DNA of 64,000 nt, from NCBI GenBank assembly GCA_016191845.1, contig JACPVF010000007.1:682001-746000 (forward strand), in the 5' to 3' direction. The DNA is from Chloroflexota bacterium (GTDB taxonomy: Bacteria > Chloroflexota > Anaerolineae > Anaerolineales > Villigracilaceae). The notes beneath the pieces were generated by a model. That model was not told where the DNA came from, searched no databases, and was given only the letters and a program-made list of their open reading frames with translations. Both the position numbers and the translations under genes were made by a program. Shown in pieces: positions 10,914-18,314 of this stretch; position 1 is the first letter of the stretch; every line of letters starts with the position of its first letter.

Positions 10914-12893
10914 TTATTTCAGGTATTTGGCACAGGCCTCGATATTATTGCGCGGCACGAGCAGTTCCACGCCCACACTCTTGAAAGTGAATAAAGGTTT
11001 GTAGAAACATAGCGTCGGCTTGGATACCCACTGCACCCACGAGTCGTTCTCCTCACCGAAATTATCCTCGTCGTTGCTCAGACCCATTTTGAGCGGCTCG
11101 CTCACGATCATCGCGAATCGACCCTGGCTCAGGTCGCGATAATATGCTTCAAAATAAGCCGCGTCATTCTCGATGGCGTTTTGCATCAATACTTTTTTTT
11201 CGTAATCAGGCACCAGTGGAATCCCCTTTACGTACCCAAAGGTCAGCAACTGGCGCTGGTCCATGAACAGCACCTCGCCCTGTTGTGCGGCGAAAGTCGT
11301 CTCCTTTTGGATGGAAGTCAACGCCTGCTGTACATCTTCCTTGGGCGGCAGGGACTGGGACTGTAACGCCGAGAAGGGCATGAAGGCCGGGATAGCGAGC
11401 ATCAACAGCAAAACGACCCGCTCGATCCGCCCTGTGAGCTGGTTCCGTAACAGGGACGTGAGTCTCGTCCCCTGTGTGGCGGCCACTGCAGCAAAGACCA
11501 TGCCGATCAGGAACATGTCCATATTGTGCAAGTTGCTCCCGCCGCCGATCTTCACACTGACGGTCAACCCCACACCCAGAAAAGCCAGCAGCGCACCGAT
11601 CACCGCCAATACCTGCCAGGGGTTGGGACGCCATACTCCGCGCCGTCCCAGCAGGAACAGCCAGATAACCAGTGGCCCCACTGCAAGGAACAGCGCCCAC
11701 AGGATCCCTGCGCCGAAGGTCGGGTTGGGAAACAACCGATACCACAACAAGGCCTGTGTCCCGATCTTACCCGCTGTGTAGGCGGGATCCAGTCCAGAGG
11801 GATTCAGATTACGGATCGTCACATACACCCAGGGAAGAACGTATCCTCCAAGAATGCCTGCAATGCCGAATGAGATGGCGCGGGCCCAGGTGCGGCGGTC
11901 GGTCAGTTTGGCGCTGCCAAAGGCCAGAATGATGGCCCACATCGACGGCGCAAACAGCCAGGTCCAGCGGCTGATCTGGGCCAGGAAACTTGCCAGGATA
12001 ATCGTTGTCAAGGCGAAAGGGGGCGGCCAGCGCCAGGCTAGCGCCACCAGCACCGCACATATCACCAACGGCGTATAGATGGGTCCCTGGTTGAGCACCA
12101 GAAAGACCCACAAGCCTGCCAGGAACCAGGGTAGACGCTCTTCACTCCAGTGGCGGAAAGCCAGCCAGCCGAGCAACATGTATGGGAAGGTGAAGATGAA
12201 CGAATCCCAAAAACGTACAATCACGATATTGGCTTGCGGAAAAAGGAAAGGCAGGCCCCACAAGAATTGGCGGCCCACGTCAATGAAGGCTTTGAGCGGT
12301 CGGTCAGCAGGATAAATGTAGCGCCCACGTCCAAACATAACCGACCAATCGTACATGCGATTGCCCTCGGACCAGGTCAGCGAAAAGGGGTATGACGTGA
12401 CCTCAAGCAGATAACCCGTCAACGCGGCGGCAGCACCTGCAAGGACAGAACCCAGCCAAAGTGCCTCCCACGCAAGCGGAGTCGCTCCGCGCGTGAGAAG
12501 GAAGCCCAATGCGGTTACCCACAGGATAAACACGTATAACCGCAGGTCGGATGAGGAAAACAACCCAGACCAGAAGGTGTATCCGAACAACCAGAGCGGC
12601 GCAGCAAGGAGCCCTGCCGCGATCAGCCAATTGACTTTACCCAGACGTTCACGCAGTCGGACGGGGCCCACCAGAAGCGGCAGGGTCTGTTGGGGCAGCC
12701 AGAGCAGGCCCAAGGTCAGGAGCAGGGTGACGAACTCCAGCGCAGAAAAGGCTGCCAGTCCCAGAATCCAACGCGGGGTCAGGGATCCGATGGATTGAGC
12801 GGCAGCATAAAATGCCAACCAGGCGCGGACCTCGATCCACAAGGTGACCAGGCTGAGGATGATCTTGAGCGTGTATGTTTTCAGGTTTTGCAT
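10914..12893 (-). CDS. polytopic membrane protein, possibly glycosyltransferase-like
   Basis: 659 aa, many hydrophobic segments; SLTWSEGNRMYDWSVMFGRGRYIYPADRP loop; family not certain. Confidence 0.65.
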   Translation of the reverse strand: MQNLKTYTLKIILSLVTLWIEVRAWLAFYAAAQSIGSLTPRWILGLAAFSALEFVTLLLTLGLLWLPQQTLPLLVGPVRLRERLGKVNWLIAAGLLAAPLWLFGYTFWSGLFSSSDLRLYVFILWVTALGFLLTRGATPLAWEALWLGSVLAGAAAALTGYLLEVTSYPFSLTWSEGNRMYDWSVMFGRGRYIYPADRPLKAFIDVGRQFLWGLPFLFPQANIVIVRFWDSFIFTFPYMLLGWLAFRHWSEERLPWFLAGLWVFLVLNQGPIYTPLVICAVLVALAWRWPPPFALTTIILASFLAQISRWTWLFAPSMWAIILAFGSAKLTDRRTWARAISFGIAGILGGYVLPWVYVTIRNLNPSGLDPAYTAGKIGTQALLWYRLFPNPTFGAGILWALFLAVGPLVIWLFLLGRRGVWRPNPWQVLAVIGALLAFLGVGLTVSVKIGGGSNLHNMDMFLIGMVFAAVAATQGTRLTSLLRNQLTGRIERVVLLLMLAIPAFMPFSALQSQSLPPKEDVQQALTSIQKETTFAAQQGEVLFMDQRQLLTFGYVKGIPLVPDYEKKVLMQNAIENDAAYFEAYYRDLSQGRFAMIVSEPLKMGLSNDEDNFGEENDSWVQWVSKPTLCFYKPLFTFKSVGVELLVPRNNIEACAKYLK

Positions 12894-12998: not shown

Positions 12999-13424
12999 AT
13001 GTATCACACCCTGATCATCGTTGGCAATGTCGGCAAGGACCCTGAAATGCGCTATACGCCTTCGGGCCAGGCGGTCACATCATTCTCGGTCGCCACCAAC
13101 CGCCAGTACACGGCCTCGAATGGCGAGCAAGTGAAGGAAACCATCTGGTTCCGTGTTTCGGCTTGGGGCAAACAAGCCGAGATCTGCAATCAGTATCTAC
13201 GAAAAGGCTCGAAGGTGCTGATCGAAGGCCGGCTGACTCCCGACAAGAACACCGGCGGACCCCGCATCTGGTCCAAGCAGGATGGGACGGCGGGCGCTTC
13301 CTTCGAGGTGACGGCCTCCACCGTGCGCTTCCTCTCCTCCCGTGGCGAGGGCGAGGGCGGACCCGTGGCCGGCGGCGATATGGGCATGGCTGAGATGCCG
13401 CCCGAAGACGACATCCCGTTCTAG
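12999..13424 (+). CDS. ssb: single-stranded DNA-binding protein
   Basis: MYHTLIIVGNVGKDPEMRYTPSGQAVTSFSVATNRQY...ETIWFRVSAWGKQAEIC...YLRKGSKVLIEGRL; acidic tail PPEDDIPF. Confidence 0.97.
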   Translation: MYHTLIIVGNVGKDPEMRYTPSGQAVTSFSVATNRQYTASNGEQVKETIWFRVSAWGKQAEICNQYLRKGSKVLIEGRLTPDKNTGGPRIWSKQDGTAGASFEVTASTVRFLSSRGEGEGGPVAGGDMGMAEMPPEDDIPF

Positions 13425-13433
13425 GCTCAGCCC

Positions 13434-13763
13434 ATGACCACCCCGCCCAAACCGCCCGCCGGACCCAGCCTGGTCATCCCCGCGGACTTCGAGCCTGTCT
13501 ACGCCAATCTGGCGCGCATCTCGCACTCTCCCGCAGACCTGGTGATCGATTTCGCCCACCTGCTGCCCGGTGAGACTCAGGCCAAGGTCACGGCGCGTGT
13601 GTTGATGGCGCCGCTCAGCGCCAAGCTGTTTTTACGCGCGCTGGCTGAAAACGTAGCCCGTTATGAGGCTGCCTTTGGAGAGATCACCGTGCCGGGGAAT
13701 TCCTCGCTGGCCGAGAGTCTTTTCCGCCCGCCGCATCCTCCCGAACCTCCCACCACTGAGTAA
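13434..13763 (+). CDS. DUF3467-like protein
   Basis: PADFEPVYANLARISHSPADLVIDFAHLLPGETQAKVTARVLMAPLSAKLFLRALAENVARYEAAFGEI resembles the DUF3467 family. Confidence 0.85.
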   Translation: MTTPPKPPAGPSLVIPADFEPVYANLARISHSPADLVIDFAHLLPGETQAKVTARVLMAPLSAKLFLRALAENVARYEAAFGEITVPGNSSLAESLFRPPHPPEPPTTE

Positions 13764-13767
13764 TCCT

Positions 13768-14445
13768 GTGCAAAAACTCGAAACCATTGCCGAACAGATC
13801 CGCCAGACCTTCGACGCCCGCACCGCCGCGCGTGACAAGGCCCTGGCCACCGCGCGTCAACTGACCCGCGCTTGCTCGTTGTCCATCCGCGCCGTGCATC
13901 GCAGCGACACCGAAACGATGACCGCGCAACTGGCCGAGGCGCGCGCCCTGGCCGATGACTTGCGCTCCAGCCTGGCACAGTACCCCGACCTGTTTTATGC
14001 CGGGTACACCCAGGACGCGCTCAAGGAATTTGTCGAAGCCAACGTGACCTGTGCTCTGATTCAGGGTCAGCCGCTGGCCACGCCACAGGAATTGAACGTG
14101 GCTGAGGCTACTTACCTGAACGGTCTGGCCGAGGTGGTGGGCGAACTGCGCCGCCGTACGCTCGACATCCTGCGCCACGGTTATTCTGCCGAGGCCGAAC
14201 GCCTGCTCGGCATCATGGATGACATCTACTCGGTGCTGGTCACCATCGACTACCCCGATGCGATTACCAACGGCCTGCGCCGTCAGACTGATCTGGCGCG
14301 TGGCATCATCGAAAAGACCCGCGGTGACATCACCTTCAGCCTGCGCGGCCAGCATCTGGAACAGGCCATTAGCAAACTGCTCACCCAGTTCAACGGTGAT
14401 CAGTCCTCCGAGGCCAGTTCCTTCGTTCAAGACAACGAGGAATAG
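13768..14445 (+). CDS. translin-family protein
   Basis: GTG start 4 nt after the previous stop; YLNGLAEVVGELRRRTLDILRHGYSAEAERLLGIMDDIYSVLVTIDYPDAITNGLRRQTDLARGIIEKTRGDIT resembles the translin core (GLADLVGELRR...DYPD...GLRRK.D..R...E.TRGDLT). Confidence 0.88.
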   Translation: MQKLETIAEQIRQTFDARTAARDKALATARQLTRACSLSIRAVHRSDTETMTAQLAEARALADDLRSSLAQYPDLFYAGYTQDALKEFVEANVTCALIQGQPLATPQELNVAEATYLNGLAEVVGELRRRTLDILRHGYSAEAERLLGIMDDIYSVLVTIDYPDAITNGLRRQTDLARGIIEKTRGDITFSLRGQHLEQAISKLLTQFNGDQSSEASSFVQDNEE

Positions 14446-14447
14446 TC

Positions 14448-15065
14448 ATGGCGCGTTCGGGCCGCCGTTATCCGCTGGTGATCTACACCCGCATGATGGA
14501 CCGTTGGTGGCCCGCCACCTTTGCATTGGCCTTGGGACTCTTCGGCCTGGCCTGGGCTGTCCACCTGTACTACCCCGAACCCGCCTACGATTGGCAGTGG
14601 TTGACACTGGCCAGTGTGGGCGGGTTCGTGTTGGTTGTCACTTTGTTTCTCTTTACCCTGCGCAAGTCCGCCTACGTGCAGCCCAATCCTGACCACCTGC
14701 GGCTGGTCACTCCCTTCCTGCGTTTGAACATTTCCTATAAGCGCCTGCGCCGTGCCACTTCCGCCACCATGGAAGGCTTGTTTCCACCCAAGAGCGTGTC
14801 CAGTTGGCGGCGGGAAATCATCGAGCCGCTGGCCCGCAAAACCGCCGTGGTTGTGGAGTTGACGGGCTATCCCATCTCGCAGACGGTCTTGCGTTTCTTC
14901 CTTTCGCCGTTCTTTTTCAAGGACAAGACTCCGCACTTCGTTTTCCTTGTGGATGACTGGATGCGTTTCAGCACCGAGTTGGAGACCATGCGTACTGGGG
15001 GTGGGCAGGATGTCCAACGCAAGAAGACGGATCGCTCCATCCTCTCCCGATTGCCCCAGAAATGA
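14448..15065 (+). CDS. two-TM membrane protein with soluble C-terminal (PH-like?) domain
   Basis: 205 aa, 2-nt spacing from the translin gene; two hydrophobic helices then a soluble region. Confidence 0.75.
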   Translation: MARSGRRYPLVIYTRMMDRWWPATFALALGLFGLAWAVHLYYPEPAYDWQWLTLASVGGFVLVVTLFLFTLRKSAYVQPNPDHLRLVTPFLRLNISYKRLRRATSATMEGLFPPKSVSSWRREIIEPLARKTAVVVELTGYPISQTVLRFFLSPFFFKDKTPHFVFLVDDWMRFSTELETMRTGGGQDVQRKKTDRSILSRLPQK

Positions 15066-15481
15066 ACATCTACTTTGCCTGCTCCATCACCGGTGGACGG
15101 GAGTTTGAATCCGTTTATCAGATGTTCGTTTCCGCCCTGGCCGCGGATGGTCACGAGATTCCCACTTTTGGATTGGCCCAGCCCGGCGTGACAGACGAAG
15201 CCCACCTCGAGCCTGTCTTCGTCTACGAGCGCGACACTGCCTGGATTCGTGGCTGTGACGCGTTGATTGCCGAAGTTAGTGTGCCGTCACACGGGGTCGG
15301 CTATGAGGTCGGTTATGCCCTAGCCCTGGAAAAACCTGTACTCTGTCTGGCTCGCGAGGGGCGCATGGTCTCGAAGATGATCACGGGGAATCAACATCCA
15401 CTTCTGTGGGTGAAGTTCTATCCCGGCGTGGAGGAGGGAGTCGCCTGTGCCAGGGATTTCCTCTCTAGTCTTAAATTGTGA
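15062..15481 (+). CDS. nucleoside 2-deoxyribosyltransferase-like protein
   Basis: MNIYFACSITGGREFESVYQMFVSALAADGHEIPTF... CDALIAEVSVPSHGVGYEVGYALALEKPVLCLAR is the NDT/DNPH1 fold signature; 4-nt ATGA overlap. Confidence 0.88.
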   Translation: MNIYFACSITGGREFESVYQMFVSALAADGHEIPTFGLAQPGVTDEAHLEPVFVYERDTAWIRGCDALIAEVSVPSHGVGYEVGYALALEKPVLCLAREGRMVSKMITGNQHPLLWVKFYPGVEEGVACARDFLSSLKL

Positions 15482-15537: not shown

Positions 15538-15640
15538 TATCATAAGGGTGGAGACGGAACAAAGACACCTCCAAATGCTCCTCACTGTCTCCTCCTTTGG
15601 CGAAAGCCGACGCCGGGTCCTCCCCCGGCGTCGGCATTTT
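15538..15640 (+). ncRNA. candidate structured ncRNA ending in a strong terminator
   Basis: TATCAT at 15538-15543; AAGGGTGGAGAC (15544-15555) pairs with GTCTCCTCCTTT (15587-15598) in 11 of 12 positions; then terminator hairpin 15606-15635 with TTTT. Confidence 0.4.
15606..15639 (+). terminator. rho-independent terminator
   Basis: GCCGACGCCGGG-TCCTCC-CCCGGCGTCGGC perfect 12-bp stem followed by ATTTT. Confidence 0.88.
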
Positions 15641-15693: not shown

Positions 15694-17142
15694 TTATTCC
15701 TGTGAGGGAAGGACTACAAAGAATGACGAACCTTTTCCCTGCACCGATTCCACCCAGATGCGCCCGTGGTGGTTTTCCACGATGGATTTGACGATGGCCA
15801 GGCCCAGGCCTGAGCCTTGAGTTCCATCAGGGACGTTGGTTGCGCGGTAGAACTTGTCGAAGATGCGAGTCTGCTCACTTTGCGGGATGCCCGGGCCAGT
15901 ATCGGTCACCTCGAGGATGATCTGCTGATCGCGTGCAGCCACGTTGATCAGTACCTTGCCGTCGGGCGGGGTGTATTTGATGGCGTTGCCCACCAGGTTG
16001 TCGAGCAATTGGCGGATGCGGATGGGGTTGGCGCGTACGGTCGGGATGCCCGGGGCCACGTCGCACTTCAGGTCGATCTTCTTGGTGACGGCCTGACCCT
16101 CGAATGTGTCGATGGTGAACTTGAGGATGCCCTCGATGGACACCGCCTCACGGCGTGTGTCGAAGCCTGCCTCGATGCGCTCCAGGTCGAGCAGGTCGTT
16201 GACCAGGCTGGTGATGTGCTGGACGCTGGCCTGCATGCGGTGCAGGAATTCCTTTTGCTGTTCGTTGAGCGGACCGATGCGGTCGATCAATTCGGCGTAG
16301 CCCAACAGGGCTGTCAGTGGAGAGCGCAGATCGTGCGAGACCGTGTGGACGAAATCGCTCTTCATGCGGTCCAGGTCCTTGAGATAGGAAATGTCCTGCA
16401 TGGTGATGGCGGACCCGATGCCTGGGATGGGTGTGAACTGTGCGTTCATCACCTGGCCGTTGTCCAGGGTAACCTCGTGATATTTGACCGGCCCTTCCGC
16501 CGAGCGGGTGAGCAGGGCGCGGACGTCGGGCTGGGTGATAACCTCCAGCAGCGGCCTGCCCTTCAGGTCCTGGTCACCCAGGCTGAAGGTCTCGCGGATA
16601 GAGGGATTCAGGATCACGATGTTATGGCGGCTATCCAGCACGATGACGCCGTCCTGGATGTTGGCAAAGATGGTCTCGTAGCGGTTGCGCTCGGACTCCG
16701 ACAACTGGGCGCGTTTCTCCAGCGAGGCAGTGGTCATCTTGACCTCGCGGCGCAGCCAGTCCCCAAGATGATGGGCGCGTTCCATGCTGCGATTGACTGC
16801 CGTCACGATGTCTTCGATACGCAGGGGGGGATAGAGATAGCCGCTCAACCCTATCCTCAACACTTCCTTGGCCAACCCGGTCGTATCGTGCTCGGCGAAG
16901 AGCAGGATGGGCAGGGTGGGGAAGCGGTCCAGCATGCTCTCGGCGAGCTTCAATCCGCTCTTGCCTGCGAAGGTCTCCCCGACCAGCACCAGCGCCGGGC
17001 TGGATTCCTGCAAGGCCTTCTGCATCGACTCGATATCCTGCACGATGGCCAGTTCGTATCCCGCCGCGCGCAAAGCGCGCCCGGTCAATTGCAGGATGGG
17101 TGAGTCGTCGAGGACCAGGAGGAGGAGGTCAGGTTTTGCCAT
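15694..17142 (-). CDS. sensor histidine kinase: degenerate receiver - PAS - HisKA - HATPase
   Basis: H-box DFVHTVSHDLRSPLTALLGYAELI, N-box LVGNAIKYTP, G-box DTGPGIP, GSGLGLAIV; N-terminal REC-like fold VLDDSPILQLTGRALRAAGYEL. Confidence 0.92.
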   Translation of the reverse strand: MAKPDLLLLVLDDSPILQLTGRALRAAGYELAIVQDIESMQKALQESSPALVLVGETFAGKSGLKLAESMLDRFPTLPILLFAEHDTTGLAKEVLRIGLSGYLYPPLRIEDIVTAVNRSMERAHHLGDWLRREVKMTTASLEKRAQLSESERNRYETIFANIQDGVIVLDSRHNIVILNPSIRETFSLGDQDLKGRPLLEVITQPDVRALLTRSAEGPVKYHEVTLDNGQVMNAQFTPIPGIGSAITMQDISYLKDLDRMKSDFVHTVSHDLRSPLTALLGYAELIDRIGPLNEQQKEFLHRMQASVQHITSLVNDLLDLERIEAGFDTRREAVSIEGILKFTIDTFEGQAVTKKIDLKCDVAPGIPTVRANPIRIRQLLDNLVGNAIKYTPPDGKVLINVAARDQQIILEVTDTGPGIPQSEQTRIFDKFYRATNVPDGTQGSGLGLAIVKSIVENHHGRIWVESVQGKGSSFFVVLPSQE

Positions 17143-17147
17143 TCAGA

Positions 17148-18314
17148 TCAGGATTCGGAATTCTTGGGTTGGGTGGTAGATTTCTCGGAGGTGCGGGCTA
17201 GGCGGTTGATGGCATCCTGGACGGAGAGCAGCGCCTGTTTTTGTTCATTGTTGAGCGACCCGGGCATTTCGGTCAGCACCAGGTTGAGCGGGTATCCCGC
17301 TGCCTGAAGTTCCTTCGCCACGGCTGCGCGCATGCCTTCCAGTGCTGTGTTCTGACGCTTCTCGCTTTCGCGGGCAGCCTCAGCCGATTGTTCCAGGGCG
17401 CGGAACAGGCGCGCATTGACCAGCGAGGTGGAGGCGAAATCGGCGACGGCTTCGAGCAGGGCCTGCTCTTCGCGGCCGATCTCGGTATCGAACCTGCGGA
17501 CCACGATCAGCAGGCCGATGACCTCGGCTTGTACTTTGATGGGAATGACCGCCGCTGACTTGCCCAGCGCGGCCACTTTGAATTTTTGCAGGGGTGGGCC
17601 GTGCATGACGAGTGTCTCGCCTGAAAGGCCCACCAGTGAACTGATGCCGTCGTCCAGCGGCTGGTTGCGTTTCTTGGCCCAGCCCTCGGGCAGGTTGCGG
17701 TCGGCAGTGAGCAGGAACTGGCGGGTCTTGTCGTCGCGCAACATCAACCAGCCGATCTCGGCCCCGGCCACCTGCAGCGCACCTTCCAGGATGCGGTCGA
17801 ACAACTGGCGTTGGCTGGTGATGTTGACCACCGCGCGGGCGATGCCCAGGATGGTGGTCAATTGATGGACCTTGCGCTGGAGTTCCTCGTTCATCCCCTT
17901 GACCTTCTGGTCCAGCTGCTGGCGCGTGCGGGATTCGCGGGTCTGGCGCAGGGCGCGCTCCACCACGGTCACCACCTCTGCGTCGCGGGCGGGCCAGAAG
18001 AGCACATCGTTGGCGCCCAGGCGGAAGGACTGAATCACATCCGCTTCCTGGCCCTTTTCGGCCACGAGGATCAGCGGCGCGGTGATGCCCTGGGCCGAAA
18101 AAGCCACCAGCAGGTCCTTGGCGCTCAGGCCGGGCAGGTTCAAGTTGGCAATGACCAGGTCCGGGCTGGAAAAAATCGCCTCCTGAATGGCGGAAGCGGC
18201 CTCCGTGGCAATCGACACTTGATACCCGAGAGGTTTGAGGGCCTGTCGGGCGATGAGGTCGCTGATGTCGGGGTCGTTTTCCACGACCAGGATGCGTTCG
18301 TTGGGAGACGCCAT
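17148..18314 (-). CDS. receiver-like domain + GAF domain protein
   Basis: RILVVENDPDISDLIARQALKPLGYQV...PDLVIANLNLPGLSAKDLL followed by coiled coil and GAF (FDRILEGALQVAGAEIGWLMLRDD...). Confidence 0.88.
   Translation of the reverse strand: MASPNERILVVENDPDISDLIARQALKPLGYQVSIATEAASAIQEAIFSSPDLVIANLNLPGLSAKDLLVAFSAQGITAPLILVAEKGQEADVIQSFRLGANDVLFWPARDAEVVTVVERALRQTRESRTRQQLDQKVKGMNEELQRKVHQLTTILGIARAVVNITSQRQLFDRILEGALQVAGAEIGWLMLRDDKTRQFLLTADRNLPEGWAKKRNQPLDDGISSLVGLSGETLVMHGPPLQKFKVAALGKSAAVIPIKVQAEVIGLLIVVRRFDTEIGREEQALLEAVADFASTSLVNARLFRALEQSAEAARESEKRQNTALEGMRAAVAKELQAAGYPLNLVLTEMPGSLNNEQKQALLSVQDAINRLARTSEKSTTQPKNSES

Follow-up and report, generated by a model that had tools for sequence, protein, structure and literature searches.

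The locus described here raises the question of what a protein of the translin superfamily does in a bacterium, where its gene lies in an operon with that of a single-strand binding protein (SSB). Translin was discovered as a breakpoint-binding protein, and its role at DNA has been disputed ever since. To our knowledge, almost no biology has been attached to the bacterial members. The locus belongs to a 64,000-nucleotide stretch of a Chloroflexota genome, hereafter called the window, and the ssb-DUF3467-translin operon that it represents in Anaerolineae suggests a machine, so far undescribed, that cleans up single-stranded nucleic acid.

Five plus-strand genes occupy positions 12999-15481 and code, in order, for an SSB, a DUF3467 protein, a translin-superfamily protein, a protein with two predicted transmembrane segments (two-TM protein) and a homologue of the deoxynucleoside-monophosphate N-hydrolase DNPH1/Rcl. 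The first four are spaced 9, 4 and 2 nt apart, and the fourth and fifth share 4 nt. Coordinates and spacings reproduce exactly those of the preliminary description of this DNA, which had read a tight five-gene operon very likely producing one transcript; the short gaps and the arrangement kept in relatives uphold that view, and the five genes likely form one transcription unit. A strong terminator-like hairpin (plus strand, 15606-15635), with a 12-pair stem containing 11 G-C pairs followed by ATTTT, is located 3' of the DNPH1-like gene. Since the upstream gene (10914-12893) is oriented away from the five genes and the downstream kinase gene (15694-17142) towards them, the five constitute a stand-alone unit. 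Two adjoining signalling proteins of 482 and 388 aa are encoded on the minus strand at 15694-18314, facing the operon. This pair reads as a PAS/histidine kinase with a receiver and a receiver-GAF protein, and homologues are present at the same place in many relatives.

The third gene (13768-14445, 225 aa, GTG start) encodes, as judged from its sequence and predicted structure, a real member of the translin superfamily, of the archaeal single-gene Trax/C3PO type. Its score against the Pfam Translin model PF01997 is 23.0 bits, below the cut-off of 25.9. A phmmer search relates it to AfTrax (5.5e-24) and to the C3PO of N. equitans (2.6e-6), and a profile built from 24 Chloroflexota relatives recovers both AfTrax (2.2e-39) and human Trax (1.3e-8). 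The AlphaFold2 model (pLDDT 94.4) is all-helical and has an AfC3PO-like fold: the best PDB match found by Foldseek is AfC3PO (3zc1; TM 0.92 by target, 1.5 A), followed by NeC3PO, solved with ssRNA and with ssDNA, and then by human Trax, and every one of the 49 PDB chains with E < 0.001 is a translin or a Trax. The assignment to the translin superfamily first made from the letters is thus settled by phmmer, the family profile and the fold comparison. Like eubacterial translins, the protein matches the NCBIfam model PRK14562 (4.4e-79, its best model there), which is named 'haloacid dehalogenase superfamily protein'. Identity as a HAD phosphatase was rejected because the model is all helix with the translin fold, and the PRK14562 name is therefore wrong for the translin family.

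The preliminary description had also spoken of a eukaryotic/archaeal translin, which holds for the superfamily and fails for the eukaryotic type, the protein being of the Trax/archaeal C3PO type with catalytic carboxylates. Alignment of the nuclease carboxylates shows that all four positions have stayed acidic (E87, E90, E122 and E126), which makes it of Trax type; eukaryotic translin retains only one of the catalytic residues of human Trax, according to the account in PMC9246224. Single-gene and all-helical, it resembles the archaeal C3PO/AfTrax (3zc0, 3zc1) and NeC3PO (5jr9, 5jrc, 5jre) structures, on which it superposes at 1.5-1.9 A, and it shares with AfTrax (about 33% identity) and NeC3PO (about 20%) the carboxylate pairs E-x-x-E and (D/E)-xxx-E. 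Unlike the archaeal proteins, it has a bacterial host and a Glu as third carboxylate where they have an Asp, and its gene accompanies those of an SSB and DUF3467, whereas the archaeal gene is placed by PMC8762117 in a cluster with SepRS and endonuclease V. With the human and fly translin-Trax C3PO it has in common the fold (TM 0.6-0.7) and a Trax-like acidic site; in contrast to these two-paralogue complexes, a single gene is involved, the only translin-family gene found in the window's genome by single-sequence and profile searches, and the host has no RNAi pathway.

Translin is a core gene in Chloroflexota. A match was obtained in each of 31 genomes, that of the window and those of 30 bacteria from the same genus, family and order, and in 167 of 301 Chloroflexota genomes sampled, each with a single copy save one genome with two. 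PF01997 itself scored above cut-off in only 27 of the 301, and in three of 14 control genomes, all three archaea. No relatives were found in viral contigs or plasmids. The best 80 matches of the genome scan carry Chloroflexota names, including one labelled Herpetosiphon, itself a Chloroflexota genus. The earlier remark that the family is unusual in bacteria is thus fair for bacteria as a whole and does not hold for this phylum, where the gene is common. Translins had been recognised in bacteria before: Gupta et al. (2012, J Mol Evol; cited in PMC5424206, PMC3834833 and PMC8762117) described a eubacterial set, of which the window protein is a member.

The setting of the gene was compared at 80 loci, all on named Chloroflexota contigs; these come from related genomes with partly shared descent, so that the counts do not represent independent events. 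Upstream of translin, ssb is present at 70 of 80 loci (at one, L126, about 4 kb away) and DUF3467 at 69; downstream, the two-TM gene is found at 37 and the DNPH1-like gene at 25. Median gaps are 50 nt between ssb and DUF3467, 3 nt on either side of translin and -4 nt between the last two genes, and the arrangement is retained among translins down to about 51-60% identity. Such an arrangement is more than chance, and the conservation of neighbourhood anticipated from the window extends across its relatives. The conserved core is ssb-DUF3467-translin, and the two-TM and DNPH1-like genes are additions of the window's family; the five-gene module originally envisaged therefore survives as its first three genes and not as a fixed set of five. 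A search of the literature returned no report of this three-gene operon, and the ssb-DUF3467 setting of translin appears undescribed.

In a tree of the translins, 33 of the 36 sequences in an Anaerolineales clade (support 100/99) are linked to ssb, and the contigs of the other three (L077, L097, L109) start within about 500 nt upstream of translin. Among other families of Anaerolineae, one (L160) has ssb next to translin, and two more (L041, L164) have DUF3467 there. Outside Anaerolineae the neighbours differ by lineage and include thiE-like, H+-pyrophosphatase-like, ABC and aroA-like genes, as named from their sequences. The link with SSB probably arose within Anaerolineae, and the basic function of translin cannot depend on the operon SSB, given these other neighbours elsewhere. 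Small-genome Chloroflexota (L166, L167, L178, L180) carry translin behind a fixed string of genes that read as thymidylate kinase, tRNA thiouridylase, RNase HII and thiE.

The ssb gene of the operon (12999-13424) encodes 141 aa with an SSB OB-fold domain (PF00436, 109 bits; TIGR00621) and an acidic C-terminal tip, DDIPF. The window's genome holds three SSBs, one of which is encoded on another contig (L201) between genes reading as rpsF and rpsR. The order rpsF-ssb-rpsR is the standard place of the housekeeping ssb, and the possibility that the operon SSB is the only or the housekeeping copy was rejected on this ground. The two proteins are 42% identical, and when 70 operon SSBs were compared with the three of this genome, all 70 matched the window's operon SSB best. 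The operon SSBs end in I/L-P-F tails, such as DEIPF, with DDIPF the most frequent. By these comparisons the operon SSB is a dedicated paralogue, in an orthologous group separate from the housekeeping SSB and with its predicted interaction tail kept. A dedicated, orthologous SSB with an intact tail is better evidence of a joint task than a housekeeping gene.

The second gene (13434-13763) encodes a DUF3467 protein of 109 aa (PF11950, 71.2 bits against a cut-off of 25), for which AlphaFold2 (pLDDT 88) predicts a beta-beta-beta-alpha core. A search with this fold gave no significant match, the weak best ones (E at least 0.17) including PC4/Sub1, trypanosome MRP1/2 and Pur-alpha, all single-strand binders; a sequence search for PDB relatives found nothing, and in the literature searched the family is mentioned only incidentally. 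DUF3467 is possibly a PC4/Whirly-like single-strand binder. As an alignment of 34 relatives reveals, DUF3467 proteins encoded beside translin have a conserved C-terminal SLA(D/E)xLFRP and a proline-rich tail. DUF3467 also occurs without an adjoining translin, and Herpetosiphon-like copies away from translin do not have the SLA(D/E)xLFRP tail, which may represent a docking peptide. For DUF3467, which occurs in bacteria as well as archaea, the operon provides the first partners that recur consistently, within a single lineage.

The fifth gene (15062-15481, 139 aa) encodes a homologue of DNPH1/Rcl, with a match to PF05014 (Nuc_deoxyrib_tr) of 57 bits, above cut-off, and to rat Rcl by phmmer at 4.9e-19. 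In human numbering, Y24, D80 and E104 are the catalytic residues of DNPH1, and E55/H56, acting on the water and the base, serve the hydrolysis of hmdUMP, as outlined in PMC10603095. All three catalytic residues are conserved in the window enzyme, and the aligned Tyr, Asp and Glu do not vary among 24 operon members; two Ser positions are likewise retained, in agreement with the nucleotide-sanitation fold recognised at the outset. Unlike DNPH1/Rcl, it does not have equivalents of E55/H56, the aligned residues differing in a gapped and poorly alignable region, and for this reason we make no claim that it is specific for hmdUMP. In Bellilinea (G030) the gene lies apart from the operon, and several members of the window's family do not have it.

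Taking these elements together, we propose that the ssb2-DUF3467-translin genes of Anaerolineae encode a module for processing single-strand nucleic acid. A homo-oligomeric ribonuclease of Trax type would be its foundation, SSB2 the recruiter and DUF3467 the adaptor; we give this reading a probability of about 0.4. The gene identities, the translin fold, the kept carboxylates, the SSB tail, the catalytic residues of the DNPH1-like enzyme and the conservation of the operon are shown by the present analysis. In the proposed mechanism, translin would be a metal-dependent endoribonuclease of Trax type whose single kind of subunit would assemble into a C3PO-like hollow oligomer. Its substrate would be short single-stranded RNA, or RNA that is base-paired with DNA or has been displaced from it; the oligomer would engulf this RNA, and E87/E90/E122/E126 would cut it. 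The dedicated SSB would mark exposed single-stranded DNA, its acidic tail bringing the ribonuclease and DUF3467, and RNA would be cleared from single-stranded DNA in repair or in transcription-replication conflict. In the window's family, any damaged or unwanted deoxynucleoside monophosphates set free in the process would then be broken down by the DNPH1-like hydrolase. The parts played in the module by DUF3467 and the two-TM protein are presumed ones. Against the proposal stand the other neighbours of translin outside Anaerolineae, the DUF3467 genes lying apart from translin, a possible weakening or change of catalysis by the Glu at the third carboxylate, and the many members of the window's family in which the DNPH1-like gene is absent or unlinked; membership of one operon, moreover, need not mean a common task. 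The more specific proposal that SSB and DUF3467 physically recruit a Trax-type ring to single-stranded DNA for the removal of RNA, as a counterpart of the genome-stability role of translin, we regard as speculative and rather doubtful. If true, an RNase ring recruited in this manner would mean that the translin superfamily had a function linked to DNA from ancient times. An operon with a dedicated SSB also offers a one-subunit system for separating DNA-linked from RNA-linked roles of translin biochemically.

A first alternative is that translin acts purely in RNA metabolism, in the removal of tRNA leader fragments or the turnover of small RNAs, and that the ssb operon is a convenient housekeeping unit. 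Such a role has been proposed for archaea and for Neurospora: archaeal TRAX genes adjoin those of SepRS and endonuclease V, as reported in PMC8762117, and Neurospora C3PO removes pre-tRNA fragments, in work cited in PMC3834833. The unrelated neighbours of Chloroflexota translins outside Anaerolineae also fit this explanation. However, the ssb partner is a dedicated paralogue that translin keeps across a divergent order and a second family, DUF3467 is likewise retained at its side, and in many relatives the string runs on into RecN and a Cas4-like nuclease. We consider a role in RNA alone a serious candidate, albeit an unlikely one.

A second alternative retains the partnership with SSB and makes the ring, in the manner of eukaryotic translin, a non-catalytic binder of ssDNA or RNA that protects or remodels its substrate, the change at E122 having cost it the RNase activity. 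E87, E90 and E126 are invariant in 24 of 24 diverse Chloroflexota translins, and position 122 is E/D, with Glu in 23 of the 24; in a set of 80 loci, all four carboxylates are Glu throughout. AfTrax and NEQ131 have Asp at the third position, and the AfTrax Asp aligned to E122 is replaced by Ala in 3zc0, the entry of AfC3PO with duplex RNA. The exchange of Asp for Glu may have weakened or changed catalysis. A binding role also agrees with the invariance of six basic residues (R41, H44, R45, R128, R129 and R171) among the relatives, and with fission-yeast translin, which acts in genome stability without RNase activity as described in PMC9246224. Four positions that stay acidic in nearly all members are nevertheless unexpected for a dead site, and the loss of all but one Trax catalytic residue in eukaryotic translin (PMC9246224) forms a contrast to them. 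Loss of catalysis is in our opinion improbable as the explanation of this operon.

Finally, a defence or mobile-element system, suggested by the Cas4-like nuclease found in the same string in relatives, is highly improbable and was rejected, as no window gene belongs to a PADLOC family (best E 0.039), viral contigs and plasmids yielded no relative, and translin is distributed as a core gene with one copy per genome.

The proposed processing module has variable companions behind translin. The two-TM protein of the window (14448-15065, 205 aa) has hydrophobic segments near residues 22-41 and 51-71, as judged from hydropathy, and a soluble C-terminal part, and no known domain family matches it above cut-off. 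The suggestion that it tethers the module does not describe a general feature, the gene being lineage-specific. Among the loci seen, proteins of this uncharacterised type occur only in the window's family and its near relatives, and they conserve the motifs FFFKDKTPHFV and, at the C-terminus, SILSRLP. In Anaerolineaceae and other relatives, the slot behind translin is occupied by a Cas4-like gene pair, an NAD kinase, a B-box zinc-finger membrane protein and RecN. The window's own genome carries this string intact on another contig (L235:1163-5176). Some lineages have the ssb-translin and RecN strings as one and others keep them apart, a pattern that ties the ssb-translin unit loosely to DNA repair. 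The Cas4-like pair corresponds to a split PD-(D/E)XK nuclease made of two adjoining small membrane-anchored proteins, of 75-106 aa and about 170 aa (L093, L095, L096, L099 and others). The first part covers the start of the profile with its Cys and is a weak match alone, the second covers the rest, with the Asp, the ExK and three Cys, and each has a hydrophobic segment.
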